From positions 186,001-250,000 of the forward strand of contig JAPHSY010000001.1 of assembly GCA_026196495.1 (NCBI GenBank): a stretch of 64,000 nt of DNA, written 5' to 3'. Both the position numbers and the translations under genes were made by a program. This document shows positions 3,919-43,000 of the stretch, one piece after another. Every line of letters starts with the position of its first letter. Positions within the stretch are counted from its first letter, which is position 1. Under the pieces are notes generated by a model that saw nothing but the letters and a program-made list of their open reading frames with translations, was not told the DNA's origin and ran no database searches. The stretch is from Magnetovibrio sp. Its GTDB lineage: Bacteria; Pseudomonadota; Alphaproteobacteria; Rhodospirillales; Magnetovibrionaceae.

Positions 3919-4380
3919 TTATTTGTCTGGTGCAGATCGGTTGATGAATTTACACACCAGCTGATCGGCAGCCAGCCAGCCGTGTCCGCGCGCGATGATG
4001 AAAATAAGGACTGCAGACCACAGTAAATGGTCAGGCCAGCTACCTGGATAAACAAAGATCTGGATCACCATGGTCATGCCCAACAGGCCCAATGCAGACA
4101 GGCGTGTGGCGAGCCCAATTACCAATAAAGTACCCAGAACATGTTCTGCGGTGGTGGCCATCATGGCAGCGATTTCGGGGGGGATGACGGGGACTTTGTA
4201 TTCTTCGCGAAACAGGTACAAGGTGGTGTCGGTGATGTTGAAATCCCCATCCACTTTGGTTTGACCGGCACGGACAAAAAAAGCACCCATGCCGACCCGG
4301 GCCATCAAGAGAATCAGGTTATCCGGTACGGCTTTGAGACGATCTGTGGCTTGTGAATAAAGATCAAGTAGAGAAGACAT
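3919..4380 (-). CDS. DoxX-family membrane protein of the bufferin operon (BufD-like)
   Basis: The 153-aa inner-membrane protein has about four hydrophobic segments (about 22-42, 65-90, 92-112, 115-135), as in DoxX/DUF417-type proteins. It is the last gene of the bufA1-bufB-bufC-doxX run, which is the usual order in proteobacterial bufferin loci. Its role there is not settled; a redox or membrane function is inferred. The ATG at 4380 was chosen because GGAGAG lies just upstream; the in-frame ATG at 4392 has no ribosome site. Confidence 0.8.
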   Translation of the reverse strand: MSSLLDLYSQATDRLKAVPDNLILLMARVGMGAFFVRAGQTKVDGDFNITDTTLYLFREEYKVPVIPPEIAAMMATTAEHVLGTLLVIGLATRLSALGLLGMTMVIQIFVYPGSWPDHLLWSAVLIFIIARGHGWLAADQLVCKFINRSAPDK

Positions 4381-4407
4381 TGGGCTCTCCATAAAAATTA
4401 AATGTAT

Positions 4408-5169
4408 TCAGCGCTGGAATGCACCAGCGGCAATTAAAAGACCTAAGGCGTTGGGGGCTTCGTTGGCATCACCGATACCTTCGACAGCTCCAAAAGCATC
4501 TTCAAGACATGCTCCATCTGCGAGGCACGAAGCCAACGTGAAGCCACCAGCACCAAGTTCGATAATTTGCACATCAAGCTGGGATCGCACCAAAACCAGA
4601 TGATTTTCACCATCATCCAAATTGACCAAGGCCTCCGGGTCGGCATCACATTGATGTAGATCCCAAATTTGTTTCAAAGGATAAGGGCTTGTGATCAGGC
4701 GCAGACTGGGGTGGGGATTTAAGACCAATGCATTAAGATCATCGGCGCCAATAGCGCCCAAATCAGCGGTGGTCATCACCGGGGCAGCAGGGGCATGAAA
4801 CGATTCATTCCACAGCCACTCCAACCGCGCGACGTCTTCAATGTAGGGCAGTTCGGCAAGAGATGGGGTGTGGCCCAAGAATTCAGGAAAGTTGGCTCCG
4901 TATTCAAACAAACACGGCGCGGTGGGAGGATTGGTGCGGATGTATTGGCGGGTCAGGTTGGCAAAGAACTCATCCCCTACGAGGGCTTTAACAATGCGAA
5001 AGGTCGCGCCTAAGCTTTCACCCAGCAATATGGTGGTGTTGTTGCGGTGAATGGACAGGCGTTCTTGTGTGCTGAATCCATCGCCGATGATGACGCCTGC
5101 CAACGGTGCGGCATCGCCGCCTAAGGAAACCGCGCGCATGGCGCTTTGCAATTCAGCGAGCGTGGGCAT
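4408..5169 (-). CDS. bufC: DUF2063 partner protein of the MNIO enzyme (BufC/HvfC family)
   Basis: The 253-aa protein starts with a DUF2063 domain (about residues 5-95; RLSIHRNNTTILLGESLGATFRIVKALVGDEFF is the family hallmark region) and has a less conserved C-terminal half rich in acidic residues. In characterised MNIO systems this partner binds the precursor and helps the DUF692 enzyme modify it. The gene overlaps the 3' end of bufB by 17 bases, so the two are probably translationally coupled. The DoxX gene follows after 27 bases. Confidence 0.85.
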   Translation of the reverse strand: MPTLAELQSAMRAVSLGGDAAPLAGVIIGDGFSTQERLSIHRNNTTILLGESLGATFRIVKALVGDEFFANLTRQYIRTNPPTAPCLFEYGANFPEFLGHTPSLAELPYIEDVARLEWLWNESFHAPAAPVMTTADLGAIGADDLNALVLNPHPSLRLITSPYPLKQIWDLHQCDADPEALVNLDDGENHLVLVRSQLDVQIIELGAGGFTLASCLADGACLEDAFGAVEGIGDANEAPNALGLLIAAGAFQR

Positions 5170-6061
5170 GTTGTGGCTCCGGTTTGGTCACATCGGTGTG
5201 GCGGTGTTGGTCTAAGACGCGATCAGCTTTGGCGGCCTCGCCTAGCAATACACCCAATTCAGGAATGTTACTGTCCCATTCGATTAGGGTTGGTTTTGGT
5301 CCCATCAATGCGATGGTGTGGTTGTAAAGATCCCATACCGCATCGCAAATGGGGGAGCCGTGATCATCAACGCGAATGGTGCGCCCACCAATCACGGTTT
5401 TGCTGTGTCCGGCCATATGAATTTCTTTCACCAACTCACCAGGGATTTGGTTGATATAATCAATAGGGTCAAAGCCGTGGTTCTTGGCGCTGACATAGAC
5501 GTTATTGACGTCCAGTAAAATGCGGCAATCGGTGCGCTCCGCCACCGCCAATAAAAACTCAGGTTCTGGAATAACGGAATGTTCGTAGCGCAAGTACGAT
5601 GATGGGTTTTCGATCAAAACCCGGCGTTTCAGCGTATCTTGCATCTGCACCACGTGGTCACAGAAAATATCTAAACTTTCTTCGGTATAGGGCAGTGCGA
5701 TCAAATCGTTGAGGTAGACACCATCAGCAATGCTCCACGACAAATGTTCGGACACCGCACCGGGCTCCAGGCTTTGTTCAAGAGTACGCAGGCGCCCAAG
5801 ATGGTTTTTGTCCAATGGTCCGGCAGAGCCCAGTGACAAACCAACACCATGCATGGAAATGGGGAAGCGTTCGCGCATGGCCATCAGCCAATTGTGGGTT
5901 GGGCCGCCTTGGCACATGTAGTTTTCACTGTGCACTTCCAGCCAACCGATGTCGGGCTGGGTTTCCAGGATTTCTTGGTAATGTTGGGCCTTGAGCCCGA
6001 TCCCGGCACGTGCGGGGATCGGGCTTTCAAGACGATGCGCGGTTTGGGCCTGTTGGTCCAT
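5153..6061 (-). CDS. bufB: Multinuclear non-heme iron oxygenase (DUF692, MNIO), bufferin maturase
   Basis: The 302-aa TIM-barrel enzyme belongs to DUF692/MNIO, which uses a two- or three-iron centre to modify cysteines of a ribosomally made peptide. Likely metal-ligand segments are visible: MHGVGLS, SEHLSW, IENPSSY, LLDVNNVYVSAKNHG, IHMAGH, VDDHGSPI and LIEWD. Length is normal. It lies 29 bases after bufA1, its presumed substrate, and overlaps bufC. In bufferin systems the reaction is reported to form thiooxazole rings on cysteines; that is family knowledge, not visible here. Confidence 0.9.
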   Translation of the reverse strand: MDQQAQTAHRLESPIPARAGIGLKAQHYQEILETQPDIGWLEVHSENYMCQGGPTHNWLMAMRERFPISMHGVGLSLGSAGPLDKNHLGRLRTLEQSLEPGAVSEHLSWSIADGVYLNDLIALPYTEESLDIFCDHVVQMQDTLKRRVLIENPSSYLRYEHSVIPEPEFLLAVAERTDCRILLDVNNVYVSAKNHGFDPIDYINQIPGELVKEIHMAGHSKTVIGGRTIRVDDHGSPICDAVWDLYNHTIALMGPKPTLIEWDSNIPELGVLLGEAAKADRVLDQHRHTDVTKPEPQHAHAR

Positions 6062-6090
6062 GATGCGCGTCCTTTCCTAAAAGGGCTGTC

Positions 6091-6351
6091 TTACATAGGT
6101 TTGTCGGTGCTACCGGCAATTTTTGCACAGGTGCCTTTTGGAACAGCAATGAACGCATCTTTTTGGTGATCCATTTTGGATGTACCAGCACAAGATGATG
6201 TTGCGGTTTGGCAATCGTTGTGGCCAGCTTTAGCAACGCCGTAACATTTTTCCATTTCGGCAGCGCTGGCTTCGTGCATAGCGCCTGCGGACAGGGCAAC
6301 AGCAACTGCGGCGGCGAGAATCGGGGCTTTGCTCATAGATTTAACAGACAT
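6091..6351 (-). CDS. bufA1: Bufferin 1 precursor (DUF2282), copper-binding RiPP
   Basis: The 86-aa precursor has an N-terminal signal peptide (hydrophobic to about residue 24, likely cut after ASAA at 31) and a short core with four cysteines at 36, 47, 54 and 75 in the DUF2282 pattern [24 protein letters not shown]. Unlike most RiPPs, bufferins carry a Sec signal and act in the periplasm, where the modified peptide is reported to sequester copper. The true start is the ATG at 6349-6351: GGAGGAA lies just before it, whereas the longer reading would use a TTG inside that ribosome site. The first gene of the operon. Confidence 0.92.
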
Positions 6352-6386
6352 AGTTTCCTCCAAAGTATTATAAACTCGTTATGGTT

Positions 6387-6398
6387 CCCGATATCGGG
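6387..6398. repeat. 12-bp perfect palindrome in the bufA1 leader
   Basis: CCCGATATCGGG lies between the sigma-F-like promoter and the bufA1 start. It could be an operator for a metal-responsive repressor or a small leader hairpin; no known box was recognised. Confidence 0.45.
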
Positions 6399-6438
6399 GG
6401 TAAATCGGCAATTGGTTTTGTGTGCCGACCCTCACTAT

Positions 6439-6464
6439 TTCGTTGGGGCACCAGATTGGGTTAC
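6439..6464 (-). promoter_or_regulatory. Putative sigma-F-type ECF promoter of the bufferin operon
   Basis: Read on the minus strand the sequence is GTAACC (6464-6459), exactly 16 bases, then CGAA (6442-6439). This is the arrangement I recall for Caulobacter sigma-F targets. It points towards bufA1 and would give a leader of about 80 bases. The sigma gene it would answer to starts at 6525 in the opposite direction. The match is seen; its use is inferred. Confidence 0.7.
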
Positions 6465-6524
6465 ACTGTTTTTTTAAGTGGACGTCCAAAAGCGCAATTC
6501 AATAAGAAAGTGTGCATCGCAAAA

Positions 6525-7112
6525 ATGATTAACGAAACTGAGCGCGCCCAACAAGACCGCCAATGGTCTGAGTGGATGTTTCAAGCTCAAGAGGGCGATG
6601 GGGCGGCCTATCAGAATCTTCTGATGGCTGTTTTGCCACTGGTGCGCGCGATTGTTTCCAAACGCATTGCCGATCCCGACAAGACCGAAGATATTGTTCA
6701 AGAAGTTCTCATGTCGGTGCACAAAAATCGTCACACCTATGATCCCAGTCTGCCATTTCGCCCGTGGCTTTCGACCATTACCCAGCGCCGTACGATTGAT
6801 GCGCTGCGCAAAATTTATCGCCAAGGGGAACGCGAAACGCTGGTGGACGAATATCCTGAAACCTTTTTGGCAGATGAAACGAATATGTCACCAGAGGACG
6901 ACTTGGTGTTCGCGCTGGGTGACGATTTAAACCGTGCCCTAGACACCTTACCCGCCGGTCAACGGACTGCGGTCGAGCTGTTGAAGTTGCGCGAAATGAG
7001 CCTAAAAGAAGCGTCCGAGGCCAGCGGCATGTCTGTGGCAGCATTAAAAGTTGCCATGCATAGGGCTCTAAAGAGCCTGCGTGCCGAGATGGTCCCTAAG
7101 GCGGAGCTGTAA
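6525..7112 (+). CDS. sigF: ECF RNA polymerase sigma factor, SigF-like
   Basis: The 195-aa protein contains sigma region 2 (about 22-90; TEDIVQEVLMSVHKNRHTYDPSLPFRPWLSTITQRRTIDALRK) and region 4 (about 125-185; LPAGQRTAVELLKLREMSLKEASEASGMSVAALKVAMHRALKSLR), with no region 3. It is followed one base later by an NrsF-type anti-sigma gene and diverges from the bufferin operon. This matches the Caulobacter sigF-nrsF locus, known to control the equivalent genes under metal stress. The start is set at 6525: the open frame runs 48 codons further upstream, but that part has no sigma-factor similarity and overlaps the divergent promoter. Confidence 0.85.
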   Translation: MINETERAQQDRQWSEWMFQAQEGDGAAYQNLLMAVLPLVRAIVSKRIADPDKTEDIVQEVLMSVHKNRHTYDPSLPFRPWLSTITQRRTIDALRKIYRQGERETLVDEYPETFLADETNMSPEDDLVFALGDDLNRALDTLPAGQRTAVELLKLREMSLKEASEASGMSVAALKVAMHRALKSLRAEMVPKAEL

Positions 7113-7113
7113 G

Positions 7114-7797
7114 ATGAATATCTCAACCAATGATCTGATTGCATCCCTTTCTGAGGATTTGCCCCCCGTGCAACGTTTGGCCCATCCCGCCAAGCGTTTG
7201 GCAAAATGGGTGCTTTTGGCGTTCCCGGTGTCACTGCTCTTAGGGGCATTGGTCGAGCAGCAATCCTTTAGTTTAGTATTTGTTGAGCGCCAATCCTTTG
7301 CTTTGGCAGCAGAACGTCTTACTGAAACGCGAAGCCTACTTGAGCTGGCAGCAATTTTAATGACGGCATTGACGGCTGGATACGCAGCCCTTTGCGGTGT
7401 TCAGCCTGGTCGTTCGACGAAGGCTTGGATGCTGCCTATTTTACCATTTACAGCTTGGTTGCTTATGATCGGTGAAAGCTGCTTTGCGTTATTTCAACAA
7501 ATCGGTCCTGAACAATTTAGTTTTGCTCCGCATTGGACCTGCTATCCCTCAGTGGTGGCCACGGGGGCGGCGCCAGCGCTCGTTATGGTGATTTTGCTCA
7601 AGCGCGGAATGCTGGCGTCGCCGACTGTGACGGTGGGCCTTGCCGTCTTAGCTGCATCGGCCCTAGGTGCGGTTGGTTTGCGCTTGTTCCACCCACCAGA
7701 TGCCACCGCCATGCTGTTGATGTGGCAGTTAATTGCAACACTGACATTGTATGGTTTTGCAACGTTGGGCAGTGCTATGAAAAGCCGATTTGCTTAA
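7114..7797 (+). CDS. nrsF: DUF1109/NrsF-type membrane anti-sigma factor
   Basis: The 227-aa protein has a short cytosolic N-terminus and about six hydrophobic segments (roughly 31-48, 75-95, 103-125, 145-165, 170-187, 200-220). Cysteines occur in YAALCGV, GESCFAL and WTCYPS (C143); in NrsF two conserved cysteines are required for metal response. It is the second gene of the sigma-factor operon, so it probably holds the sigma factor at the membrane until a metal or thiol stress releases it. Its stop shares the four bases TTAA with the stop of the convergent kinase gene. Confidence 0.85.
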   Translation: MNISTNDLIASLSEDLPPVQRLAHPAKRLAKWVLLAFPVSLLLGALVEQQSFSLVFVERQSFALAAERLTETRSLLELAAILMTALTAGYAALCGVQPGRSTKAWMLPILPFTAWLLMIGESCFALFQQIGPEQFSFAPHWTCYPSVVATGAAPALVMVILLKRGMLASPTVTVGLAVLAASALGAVGLRLFHPPDATAMLLMWQLIATLTLYGFATLGSAMKSRFA

Positions 7798-9317
7798 ATT
7801 TCATTGCCTGTATTGCACGTTGGTTTGTCGGCAAGGGGTAAGGTGAAGTGAAACTTCGAACCGAAACCAACGGCACTTTCTACCCATATCTTGCCCCCAT
7901 TTCGATCCAGCATGTCCCGACAGAGCGGTAACCCCAATCCTGTACCAGCTTCGCCATCGGTTCCCAATGTTGTTGTTTTCTGATCAATCGAAAAAATATT
8001 GTCGATGATGTGTTGGGGAATGCCAACGCCAGTGTCTTCTATGGTTATTTGGGCGGTCGCATCCCCTTCAAGTGATTGTGCATGAAGCGTAATTTTTCCG
8101 CCTGAAGGTGTAAATTTGATGGCATTGGCAAGTATATTGCGCACCACGGCCATGATCATTTCTTTGTCAACAGTCACCTGACAGTTACAGGTCTGATTTT
8201 TGATTTGGATATTTTTGTCTTTGGCCAGGGGGAGCAAAACATCAACGCTGTTTTGGAGGACATTATTCAGCGCAACCTTTTCAGGGACAATGGTGGCACC
8301 ATCCATTTGTAGCCTTGCCCATTCCAATAGGTTTTGGACCAGTTCAAATATATGTTCCCCGGTTTCATGGATGTCCTTGGCATATTCAGCCATTTTCTTT
8401 TTGTTCAATTGATCGCCCATATTGCTCATCATATGGGTCATGCCCAAAAGCGAATTGAAAGGGCTTTTGAGATCGTGAGAGATAATGGAAAATAAGCGGT
8501 TTTTAACGCCCACTTCGTACTGTAAGGCTTGGGTCCGTTCAGCGATGACGTCGTCCCGACTGTTGCGTTCACGGCGCAGGTTGGCAATCAGATAGCGGGC
8601 CCAGGCAATGGCAGAGGAGCTGAGTATTGTGATCAAAACAAAGACGATAAGGTGCACATTTTTAAGTTTTTTAACGGCGTTTTCTTCTGCCAAGCTCAGT
8701 GCCGTCACGGGAAATGAAACGCGAATACCGCCGCGGACATCACCCACTTTGTAGCCTTGCACAGCATGACATTTCATACATGGCTCTTTCACAGATAAAG
8801 GCGCCATGTAAGCATAAATCTGTTCTTTGCCGCTGGGTAAGATGTCCAGGTTTTCTTTGACCCCGTTTTCAAATGACATCAGGGAATTGCGTTCCCAATC
8901 TGTTGGCATATTGTTCGGATTGATTGGCTTCAGACTGGTGAGGTGAATGTTAATGTCACCCAGCGACATAATCGCGGCCAATTGTCGGGTCATATAGGCC
9001 GGGTTAATCAGGGTTAATGGTTGTCCTGACGGGGATACAATATCTTTTTCTTTTGCAATCAGATAAGGATTGGAGGGCGACATATCGGAGGTCGGAGCGT
9101 AGAGCCCCCCATGTGATGCATTCCACATGCGTGTGGCTTCAATCACAGAAAAGACCATGCGGCCTTTTTCCAACGCCAAATTGTGTGAGTTGGCTTTGAG
9201 GCCATTTAGATTCCACACATACGACCACAACACCAACCCTGCCCACAAAATGATAGGCACGCAATATACGGCAATGGTCGTCCATAAACGGTTAGGCCTT
9301 GCTGTGTTGTGTGTCAT
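7794..9317 (-). CDS. Sensor histidine kinase with Tll0287-like (DUF3365) periplasmic heme-type domain
   Basis: The 507-aa kinase has a transmembrane helix (about 11-33), a periplasmic DUF3365/Tll0287-like region (about 40-210) carrying a c-type heme motif CMKCH (C180, C183, H184), a second membrane helix (about 220-242), a HisKA domain with phospho-acceptor H281 (SIISHDLKSPF) and an HATPase domain (about 380-495; N box near VVRNILANAIKFTPSGG and GTGLGLPL). The protein has no receiver and no response regulator adjacent. It is the last of three same-strand genes (10858, 9368, 7794) spaced by about 50 bases. A redox or gas signal is inferred from the heme motif. Confidence 0.85.
   Translation of the reverse strand: MTHNTARPNRLWTTIAVYCVPIILWAGLVLWSYVWNLNGLKANSHNLALEKGRMVFSVIEATRMWNASHGGLYAPTSDMSPSNPYLIAKEKDIVSPSGQPLTLINPAYMTRQLAAIMSLGDINIHLTSLKPINPNNMPTDWERNSLMSFENGVKENLDILPSGKEQIYAYMAPLSVKEPCMKCHAVQGYKVGDVRGGIRVSFPVTALSLAEENAVKKLKNVHLIVFVLITILSSSAIAWARYLIANLRRERNSRDDVIAERTQALQYEVGVKNRLFSIISHDLKSPFNSLLGMTHMMSNMGDQLNKKKMAEYAKDIHETGEHIFELVQNLLEWARLQMDGATIVPEKVALNNVLQNSVDVLLPLAKDKNIQIKNQTCNCQVTVDKEMIMAVVRNILANAIKFTPSGGKITLHAQSLEGDATAQITIEDTGVGIPQHIIDNIFSIDQKTTTLGTDGEAGTGLGLPLCRDMLDRNGGKIWVESAVGFGSKFHFTLPLADKPTCNTGNEI

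Positions 9318-41208: not shown

Positions 41209-43000
<1,792 letters not shown>

Follow-up and report, generated by a model that had tools for sequence, protein, structure and literature searches.

Gene content and layout of the locus

The window (the whole 64,000-nucleotide stretch analyzed here, positions 186,001 to 250,000 of contig JAPHSY010000001.1 in the Magnetovibrio sp. assembly GCA_026196495.1) contains a bufferin operon, bufA1-bufB-bufC-doxX, on the minus strand at 3919-6351. The operon is divergent from two plus-strand genes, sigF (6525-7112), encoding an extracytoplasmic function (ECF) sigma factor, and nrsF (7114-7797), encoding an NrsF-family anti-sigma factor. This layout, with the operon transcribed away from the sigma and NrsF-type genes, had been proposed in the initial annotation and was borne out by gene order, strand, and matches to Pfam and NCBIfam models. 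Domains were called using Pfam, with every match above the curated cut-off, and bufB was additionally called by an NCBIfam equivalog. The genes are as follows.

6091..6351, minus strand: bufA1, Buf1 bufferin precursor, 86 amino acids with four cysteines (Pfam DUF2282, 84.9 bits)
5153..6061, minus strand: bufB, MNIO maturase, 302 amino acids (Pfam MbnB_TglH_ChrH, 343.7 bits)
4408..5169, minus strand: bufC, DUF2063 partner protein, 253 amino acids (Pfam DUF2063, 68.4 bits)
3919..4392, minus strand: doxX, DoxX family membrane protein, 157 amino acids, last gene of the operon (Pfam DoxX, 65.9 bits)
6525..7112, plus strand: sigF, ECF sigma factor, 195 amino acids, starting at ATG 6525 (Pfam Sigma70_r2, 53.3 bits; r4_2, 41.8 bits)
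7114..7797, plus strand: nrsF, six-helix membrane anti-sigma factor, 227 amino acids (Pfam NrsF, 44.5 bits against a cut-off of 26.8)

The operon has the content of a Buf1 cluster: a DUF2282 precursor with four conserved cysteines, an adjoining BufB-type MNIO maturase, a DUF2063 partner, and a DoxX protein. BufB matched the equivalog "MNIO family bufferin maturase" (MNIO_BufB) at 379.7 bits against a cut-off of 310, and 21 of its residues were identical in 85 of 85 BufB rows, including H54, H89, E134, D167, H198, D215, H217, E244, and D246 (numbered within the matched part). The four cysteines of BufA1 were identical in all 97 collected BufA rows, and its signal peptide was judged by eye. DoxX scored 39.8 bits, below the cut-off of 80, against the NCBIfam model for the HvfX-type maturation protein of ribosomally synthesized and post-translationally modified peptides. 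The start of bufA1 was set at ATG 6351, which has GGAGG just upstream, and not at TTG 6363, because the TTG reading would contain this Shine-Dalgarno-like sequence. Co-transcription of the buf genes is inferred from their spacing, with the bufC reading frame sharing 17 nt with the end of bufB and doxX beginning 15 nt after the end of bufC. On the plus strand, the ECF sigma gene is followed by a gene for an NrsF-family (DUF1109) six-helix membrane protein, the pairing seen with ECF16 sigma factors; the assignment of SigF to ECF group 16 rests on this partner and on the target motif rather than on a classifier tool. The genome (3.1 Mb, 86 contigs) contained a single DUF2282 match and a single MNIO match, and an Rfam scan of the window returned two tRNAs and no match at the buf/sigF locus.

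The initial annotation had set this single divergent locus against the system known in Caulobacter, a contrast that is wrong because Caulobacter and Cupriavidus share the arrangement. Published work is cited here and below from the abstracts, passages, and named sections covered. The Caulobacter sigF operon (CC3253-CC3252) has nrsF as its second gene, and CC3254-CC3257 encode DUF2282, DUF692, DUF2063, and DoxX proteins, with a transcription start mapped 61 nt before CC3254 (PMC3511200); given these gene numbers and operon orders, the two operons are divergent. For Cupriavidus metallidurans, the term "divergon" has been used of the gigPABT operon together with rpoQ and a putative anti-sigma gene (PMC10304878), and a 2025 survey of MNIO clusters reports sigma and NrsF genes in Buf1, not Buf2, clusters (PMC12452194). 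Among the loci collected here, bufA was divergent from sigF in 28 of 86 NrsF loci of a class-wide draw and in 34 of a 103-locus set that includes relatives (L159, with no NrsF match, being left out). Ten further loci of the larger set had buf genes placed otherwise and 59 had none in the stretch covered, which is what absence of buf means throughout, as many flanks or contigs end near sigF. Divergent bufA was also found in 39 of 80 named loci (the best 80 of 286), many of them from Burkholderiales. The divergent layout was therefore rejected as an unusual feature, which corrects the notion that the arrangement itself sets this locus apart.

Residue set of NrsF and its distribution

Caulobacter NrsF has two cysteines, C131 and C181, placed toward the periplasm (PMC3511200). 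In the Bradyrhizobium homolog OsrA, C129 is needed for sigma binding and is predicted inside the membrane, and C179 is needed for sigma release on H2O2 (PMC3420878); the cysteines of Brucella AbcS are likewise C129 and C179 (PMC8315932). Binding of the sigma factor by the NrsF-family protein was shown by two-hybrid in both Bradyrhizobium (PMC3420878) and Brucella (PMC8315932). The residues of interest in the window NrsF are listed below.

7480..7482, plus strand: Cys123, the added cysteine of a second NrsF type, inside predicted helix 109-130
7540..7542, plus strand: Cys143, the invariant cysteine, at the position of Caulobacter C131 and first residue of predicted helix 143-162
7690..7692, plus strand: His193, where published NrsF proteins have the signal cysteine (C181/C179)

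The two cysteines 50 residues apart that characterize the Caulobacter-type sensor were not found in the window NrsF. Cys143 is present and residue 193 is a histidine, exactly 50 residues past Cys143, the same gap as 131-181 and 129-179. Across 248 distinct aligned NrsF sequences, a cysteine was found at position 143 in every row; 142 carried the full Cys123-Cys143-His193 set (hereafter CCH) and 84 had a cysteine at 193 with no Cys123 (xCC). Glutamate occupied position 193 in eight sequences, one row of which was CCE, and all three cysteines occurred in one sequence. An aligned Cys123 was present in 144 rows, 142 of these with His193. The 143-193 spacing was 50 in 139 of 142 CCH rows and in 80 of 84 xCC rows, so the equivalence of position 193 is independent of gap placement. 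In a separate alignment (A2) of 79 rows, 23-74% identical to the window NrsF and chosen by kinship to the CCH type, C143 and H193 were invariant and C123 was conserved in at least 90%.

The types were counted at 104, 168, and 248 sequences, a later addition to the sample comprising 27 new loci and 20 more that were fetched; the three-cysteine row and the CCE row appeared only at 248. The search that gave the named set used 29 aligned SigF proteins, every one from a CCH-type locus, and because the set is biased to that type the proportions given here are no estimate of those in nature. Both types co-occurred in three genomes (G062, G138, and G354) as well as on a single plasmid of Rhizobium gallicum (L241, CCH; L242, xCC), which argues for different duties. 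Changes of state were counted on two trees. On the SigF tree (161 of 168 rows), NrsF type changed six times, residue 193 twice, and Cys123 four times; on the NrsF tree (248 rows, with the three columns removed), the corresponding numbers were 12, three, and ten. One xCC row (L129) neighbors an xCH row (His193 with no Cys123) amid CCH rows on the NrsF tree, a placement that suggests one stepwise conversion.

The window NrsF was modeled with AlphaFold2 from 79 sequences (mean predicted local distance difference test score 89.6, predicted template modeling score 0.85). Long helices were predicted at 25-51, 72-95, 109-130, 143-162, 170-192, and 198-226. Cys143 opens the fourth of these, His193 comes directly after the fifth, and Cys123 falls within the third, in its outer half. 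All three residues would lie toward the periplasm in this model given a cytoplasmic N-terminus, an assumption that agrees with the periplasm-facing cysteines of the Caulobacter study (PMC3511200). No usable fold match was found among solved structures (best Foldseek E-value 0.37; best VIA-align Z 5.6 at 8.5 Å).

Two variations in nrsF organization were also observed. In L123 and L141, sigF and nrsF are about 2.2 kb apart and the NrsF has no Cys123. In L130 and a Caenispirillum locus (L215), two extra tandem nrsF-like genes lie just past doxX of the buf operon, beside a normal sigF-nrsF pair.

Promoters and candidate targets of SigF

The element that the initial annotation had placed before the operon was found as an exact match in the expected orientation, and is identical to the sigmaF motif of Caulobacter (GTAACC-N16-CGAA, PMC3511200).

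6439..6464, minus strand: sigmaF-type promoter of the buf operon, GTAACC-CAATCTGGTGCCCCAA-CGAA, with its first base 113 nt and its last base 88 nt upstream of the A of the bufA1 ATG

In five of five congeners examined, the exact motif lies upstream of sigF and points away from it, with diverged spacers; it faces bufA in four of them, and in the fifth (G001) faces another secreted protein. The locus of Magnetovibrio blakemorei MV-1 (L162) is built to the same plan. Across 53 divergent CCH-type loci, GTAAC-N16/17-CG(A/T)A faced buf in 46, where dinucleotide shuffles of the upstream sequence gave 0.1. Could the match at 6439-6464 have arisen by chance, with buf read from some other promoter? Exact matches are no commoner in this genome than those of the reversed pattern used as a control (six against 15 for N16, six against 13 for N15), and genome-wide over-representation was not found, with forward plus reverse matches exceeding the control in only three of nine genomes (G002, G003, and G008). 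The case for the buf promoter is convincing because of its position and its conservation alongside diverged spacers, not because of motif number, and these, together with its orientation and the 46 of 53 loci, make a chance match highly improbable.

No sigmaF-type promoter through which sigF could be autoregulated was found facing it, the best match having three mismatches; a scan of the intergenic region with the sigma-70 consensus also gave no match. The locus thus has the divergent sigF-nrsF/buf arrangement of the Caulobacter-type circuit and lacks its sigmaF-type promoter before sigF. Promoters were tabulated for 236 of the 248 NrsF rows, leaving out sigF fragments, short upstream stretches, sequences with N, and duplicates. 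Among loci with divergent buf, the xCC members had a sigmaF-type promoter facing sigF in 25 of 28 cases and the CCH members in none of 53 (Fisher p = 6e-18, not corrected for relatedness). When any buf gene in the flank was accepted, the counts were 29/35 and 0/65, and among CCH loci with no buf the promoter was present in 17 of 72. These patterns suggest a functional coupling of sensor and wiring.

Published accounts of sigF control differ among relatives. The Caulobacter gene has a sigmaF-type promoter and is only partly sigmaF-dependent (PMC3511200), with sigF and nrsF among the genes induced by copper (PMC8224329), and Bradyrhizobium ecfF is autoregulated (PMC3420878). In C. metallidurans, rpoQ-rsqA is reported to be RpoD-dependent, which fits the missing self-type promoter here, and gig responds to periplasmic copper signals (PMC10304878).

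The description of the module as self-contained in the initial annotation was overstated, since exact sigmaF-type sites also precede operons elsewhere in the genome. Of 12 exact N15 or N16 sites, five lie upstream of genes; the seven inside long reading frames, such as that at 41360 of the window within a DNA-methyltransferase-like gene, were taken as chance matches. By sequence, GTAAC-N16/17-CGAA-type targets include buf and the VTT operon, with msrP and merT having a shorter spacing. The sites outside the buf locus are listed below.

L004, L362: before a VTT-domain gene, which is followed by genes for a pyridine-nucleotide-disulfide oxidoreductase and a DUF4405 protein
L364: before msrPQ, N15 spacing, the genes being named from Pfam Oxidored_molyb and reading of the sequence
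L367:1501-2201 (contig C14 of the window's genome): GTAACC-N15-CGAA, starting 58 nt before the ATG of a MerT gene (Pfam MerT, 64.9 bits against a cut-off of 32.9) that is followed by a MerP-like frame
L003: upstream of a gene for an HD-type protein (by reading of the sequence)

In G005 the VTT ortholog (72% identical) is likewise preceded by the exact motif, again at 68 nt, and one distant genome (L317) has a VTT-like protein facing sigF, with a sigmaF-type promoter before it. An msrP-like gene in G012, a family-level relative, has the N16 form (L330), and msrPQ is a sigmaF target in Caulobacter (PMC3511200, PMC8224329). The msrPQ, merTP-like, and VTT operons are listed as probable further SigF targets.

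In several loci, secreted proteins with NPCAA(K/H) or NPC repeats take the place of bufA. The promoter pointing away from sigF in G001 precedes the gene of a secreted protein whose SoxA/TsdA-type cytochrome domain is surrounded by repeated NPCAA units (L121 1923-2630); buf may lie elsewhere in this genome, since the metagenome-assembled genome is 67% complete and the contig is short (3.8 kb). Similar NPC-repeat proteins face sigF behind a sigmaF-type promoter in L091:3754-4104, L112:6491-7558, and L134:6259-7419, and follow exact motifs in G010 (L356:1590-2868) and G014 (L349:1600-2831). A SoxA/TsdA-type cytochrome domain was found in L349 as in L121, and a P460-type domain in L112, with that of L134 just below the cut-off. 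The repeat itself had no Pfam or NCBIfam family match among the proteins tested (all of these except L091 and L356), and the string NPCAAK was not found in the literature searched. These proteins could possibly be an alternative periplasmic metal or thiol buffer.

Other genes behind such promoters were noted. In Magnetospirillum and relatives (L167, L169, L170, L173, L256, L257, and L259), a thioredoxin-like secreted protein (WCPTC) replaces bufA in facing sigF behind a sigmaF-type promoter. A radical-SAM gene in six relatives (L342, L359, L360, L332, L347, and L331; 60-73% identical, Pfam match from L342) has an exact motif starting 40-92 nt upstream and is a candidate regulon member. In L333 (G004) and L350 (G008), an exact motif precedes a molybdenum-oxidoreductase-like gene, the two genes being 73% identical; the window's genome has a gene resembling these (L363), with no such motif on that gene's strand. 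Beside the locus itself, a histidine kinase gene (7794-9317, minus strand) with a Tll0287-like sensor domain and a CMKCH c-type heme motif is convergent with nrsF, overlapping it by 4 nt.

Interpretation and comparison with known systems

The reading of this locus as a SigF/NrsF-controlled bufferin stress module, made in the initial annotation, is upheld by gene identities, operon direction, and promoter type. More specifically, the locus quite probably encodes a SigF/NrsF-bufferin module against copper/thiol stress in the periplasm, with a Cys-Cys-His sensor and an open-loop sigF. The anti-sigma role of NrsF/OsrA, the roles of its cysteines, copper induction, and bufferin chemistry are taken from papers on relatives. 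By this analogy, NrsF, a six-helix inner-membrane protein, would hold SigF inactive until Cu(I) or another soft metal, or else a thiol-reactive agent, acts on Cys143, Cys123, and His193 at the periplasmic face and frees it. RNA polymerase with SigF would then read the promoter at 6464-6439, giving BufA1, BufB, BufC, and DoxX; BufB and BufC would convert BufA1 cysteines to thiooxazoles, as in studied bufferins, and the exported BufA1 would sequester copper in the periplasm. SigF would probably also switch on the msrPQ, merTP-like, and VTT-domain/flavin-disulfide-oxidoreductase operons. The role of the Cys-Cys-His set as sensing site, and its binding of metal, are inferred parts of this scheme. 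With no sigmaF-type promoter before sigF, the response would be open-loop, limited by the pre-existing SigF-NrsF pool.

Several observations weigh against parts of this proposal. Of 84 non-divergent CCH loci, 17 do have a sigF-facing promoter, so the residue set alone does not dictate wiring. The rows are related, and a single ancestral difference could account for most of the wiring contrast. The NrsF types amount in essence to two clades, separated mainly by one deep split, and His193 occurs with no Cys123 in 13 of the 248 sequences. Independent-pair tests of coupling between 123 and 193 fell short of significance, residue 193 changing only two or three times on the trees; with so few independent changes, compensation between the two positions is not demonstrated. 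Single sites outside buf are weak evidence because the exact motif lacks genome-wide enrichment, and the merT site is known from the window's genome alone. Deleting rpoQ in C. metallidurans increased gig expression when cells were treated with metal, an effect that the authors, who had no direct evidence of RpoQ driving gig, ascribe to compensation (PMC10304878).

The deep split, with its few independent events, and the 13 sequences with His193 and no Cys123 are what would be expected if the locus were merely Caulobacter-like, with the cysteine-to-histidine exchange and Cys123 neutral, the invariant cysteine doing the sensing, and the missing sigF promoter of no consequence. This is held to be rather unlikely, as the CCH set is kept in 142 distinct sequences, alignment A2 shows C143 and H193 invariant with C123 nearly so, the OsrA residue at the 193 position is essential for signal response (PMC3420878), and both types occur together in the three genomes and on the R. 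gallicum plasmid noted above. The signal might instead be oxidative (H2O2, HOCl, or disulfide stress), acting by cysteine oxidation, with metal induction of the bufferin secondary. NrsF-family systems of Bradyrhizobium and Brucella do answer H2O2 and HOCl (PMC3420878, PMC8315932), msrPQ bears the motif in the window's genome, and sigF-facing outputs in relatives include thioredoxin-like, MsrA-/MsrB-like, and methionine-rich proteins, as judged by reading the sequences. Against this, the Caulobacter sigmaF regulon is induced by chromate and cadmium, not by agents generating reactive oxygen species (PMC3511200), and by copper (PMC8224329); gig of C. metallidurans follows periplasmic copper (PMC10304878); a MerT gene lies behind an exact site in the window's genome; and a histidine in place of cysteine would be better suited to binding metal than to redox switching. 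An oxidative signal is accordingly considered unlikely, the less favored of these two alternatives. Sinorhizobium rpoE7 gave no response to H2O2, cadmium, or chromate as tried.

Under the preferred copper/thiol-stress reading, the natural CCH lineage, with a histidine at the signal-cysteine position and an added cysteine, predicts a different signal specificity and offers ready-made swap mutants between CCH and xCC. The absence of a sigF-facing sigmaF-type promoter in 65 of 65 buf-linked CCH members predicts a copper response without amplification, for which Caulobacter offers a direct comparison. A broader proposal, advanced tentatively and with some doubt, is that there are two solutions for one copper-buffer operon. 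The first is a two-cysteine NrsF with a self-type sigma promoter, as in Caulobacter; the second, represented by this locus, Magnetovibrio and relatives, and many Burkholderiales, is a Cys-Cys-His soft-metal NrsF with an unamplified sigma factor and other outputs swapped in, including NPCAA-type repeat proteins, some of them cytochrome-fused. If this is true, the NPCAA-repeat secreted proteins would be a further kind of periplasmic metal/thiol buffer. The locus is a new member of the known SigF/NrsF-bufferin system, and no mention of the Cys-Cys-His NrsF type or of the wiring difference was found in the literature covered (abstracts, passages, and named sections).

The closest described relative is the Caulobacter sigF/buf locus, which has the same genes, arrangement, and GTAACC-N16-CGAA promoter motif, with msrPQ as a further target. 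It differs in its NrsF, which has the C131/C181 pair where Magnetovibrio has Cys143/His193 plus Cys123 (the Caulobacter positions being taken from the paper, not aligned), and in having a second buf operon, whereas the Magnetovibrio genome has its single DUF2282 and MNIO matches. The gigPABT/rpoQ-rsqA system of C. metallidurans resembles the window in having the same four-gene operon in a divergon with a sigma gene (PMC10304878). Among its relatives, the comparison covered the NrsF of C. basilensis (L217) and that of C. necator (L243), both of which have the Cys-Cys-His set seen here. Bradyrhizobium EcfF-OsrA (PMC3420878) and Brucella BcrS-AbcS (PMC8315932) likewise combine an ECF16 sigma factor with a six-helix anti-sigma factor of the NrsF family; they differ in being of the C129/C179 type, in answering H2O2 or HOCl, and in having methionine sulfoxide reductases among their targets. 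Finally, the Buf1 bufferin clusters (PMC12452194) share the combination of DUF2282, MNIO, DUF2063, and DoxX proteins, and in the passages covered here that survey draws no distinction between NrsF types or between kinds of promoter wiring.

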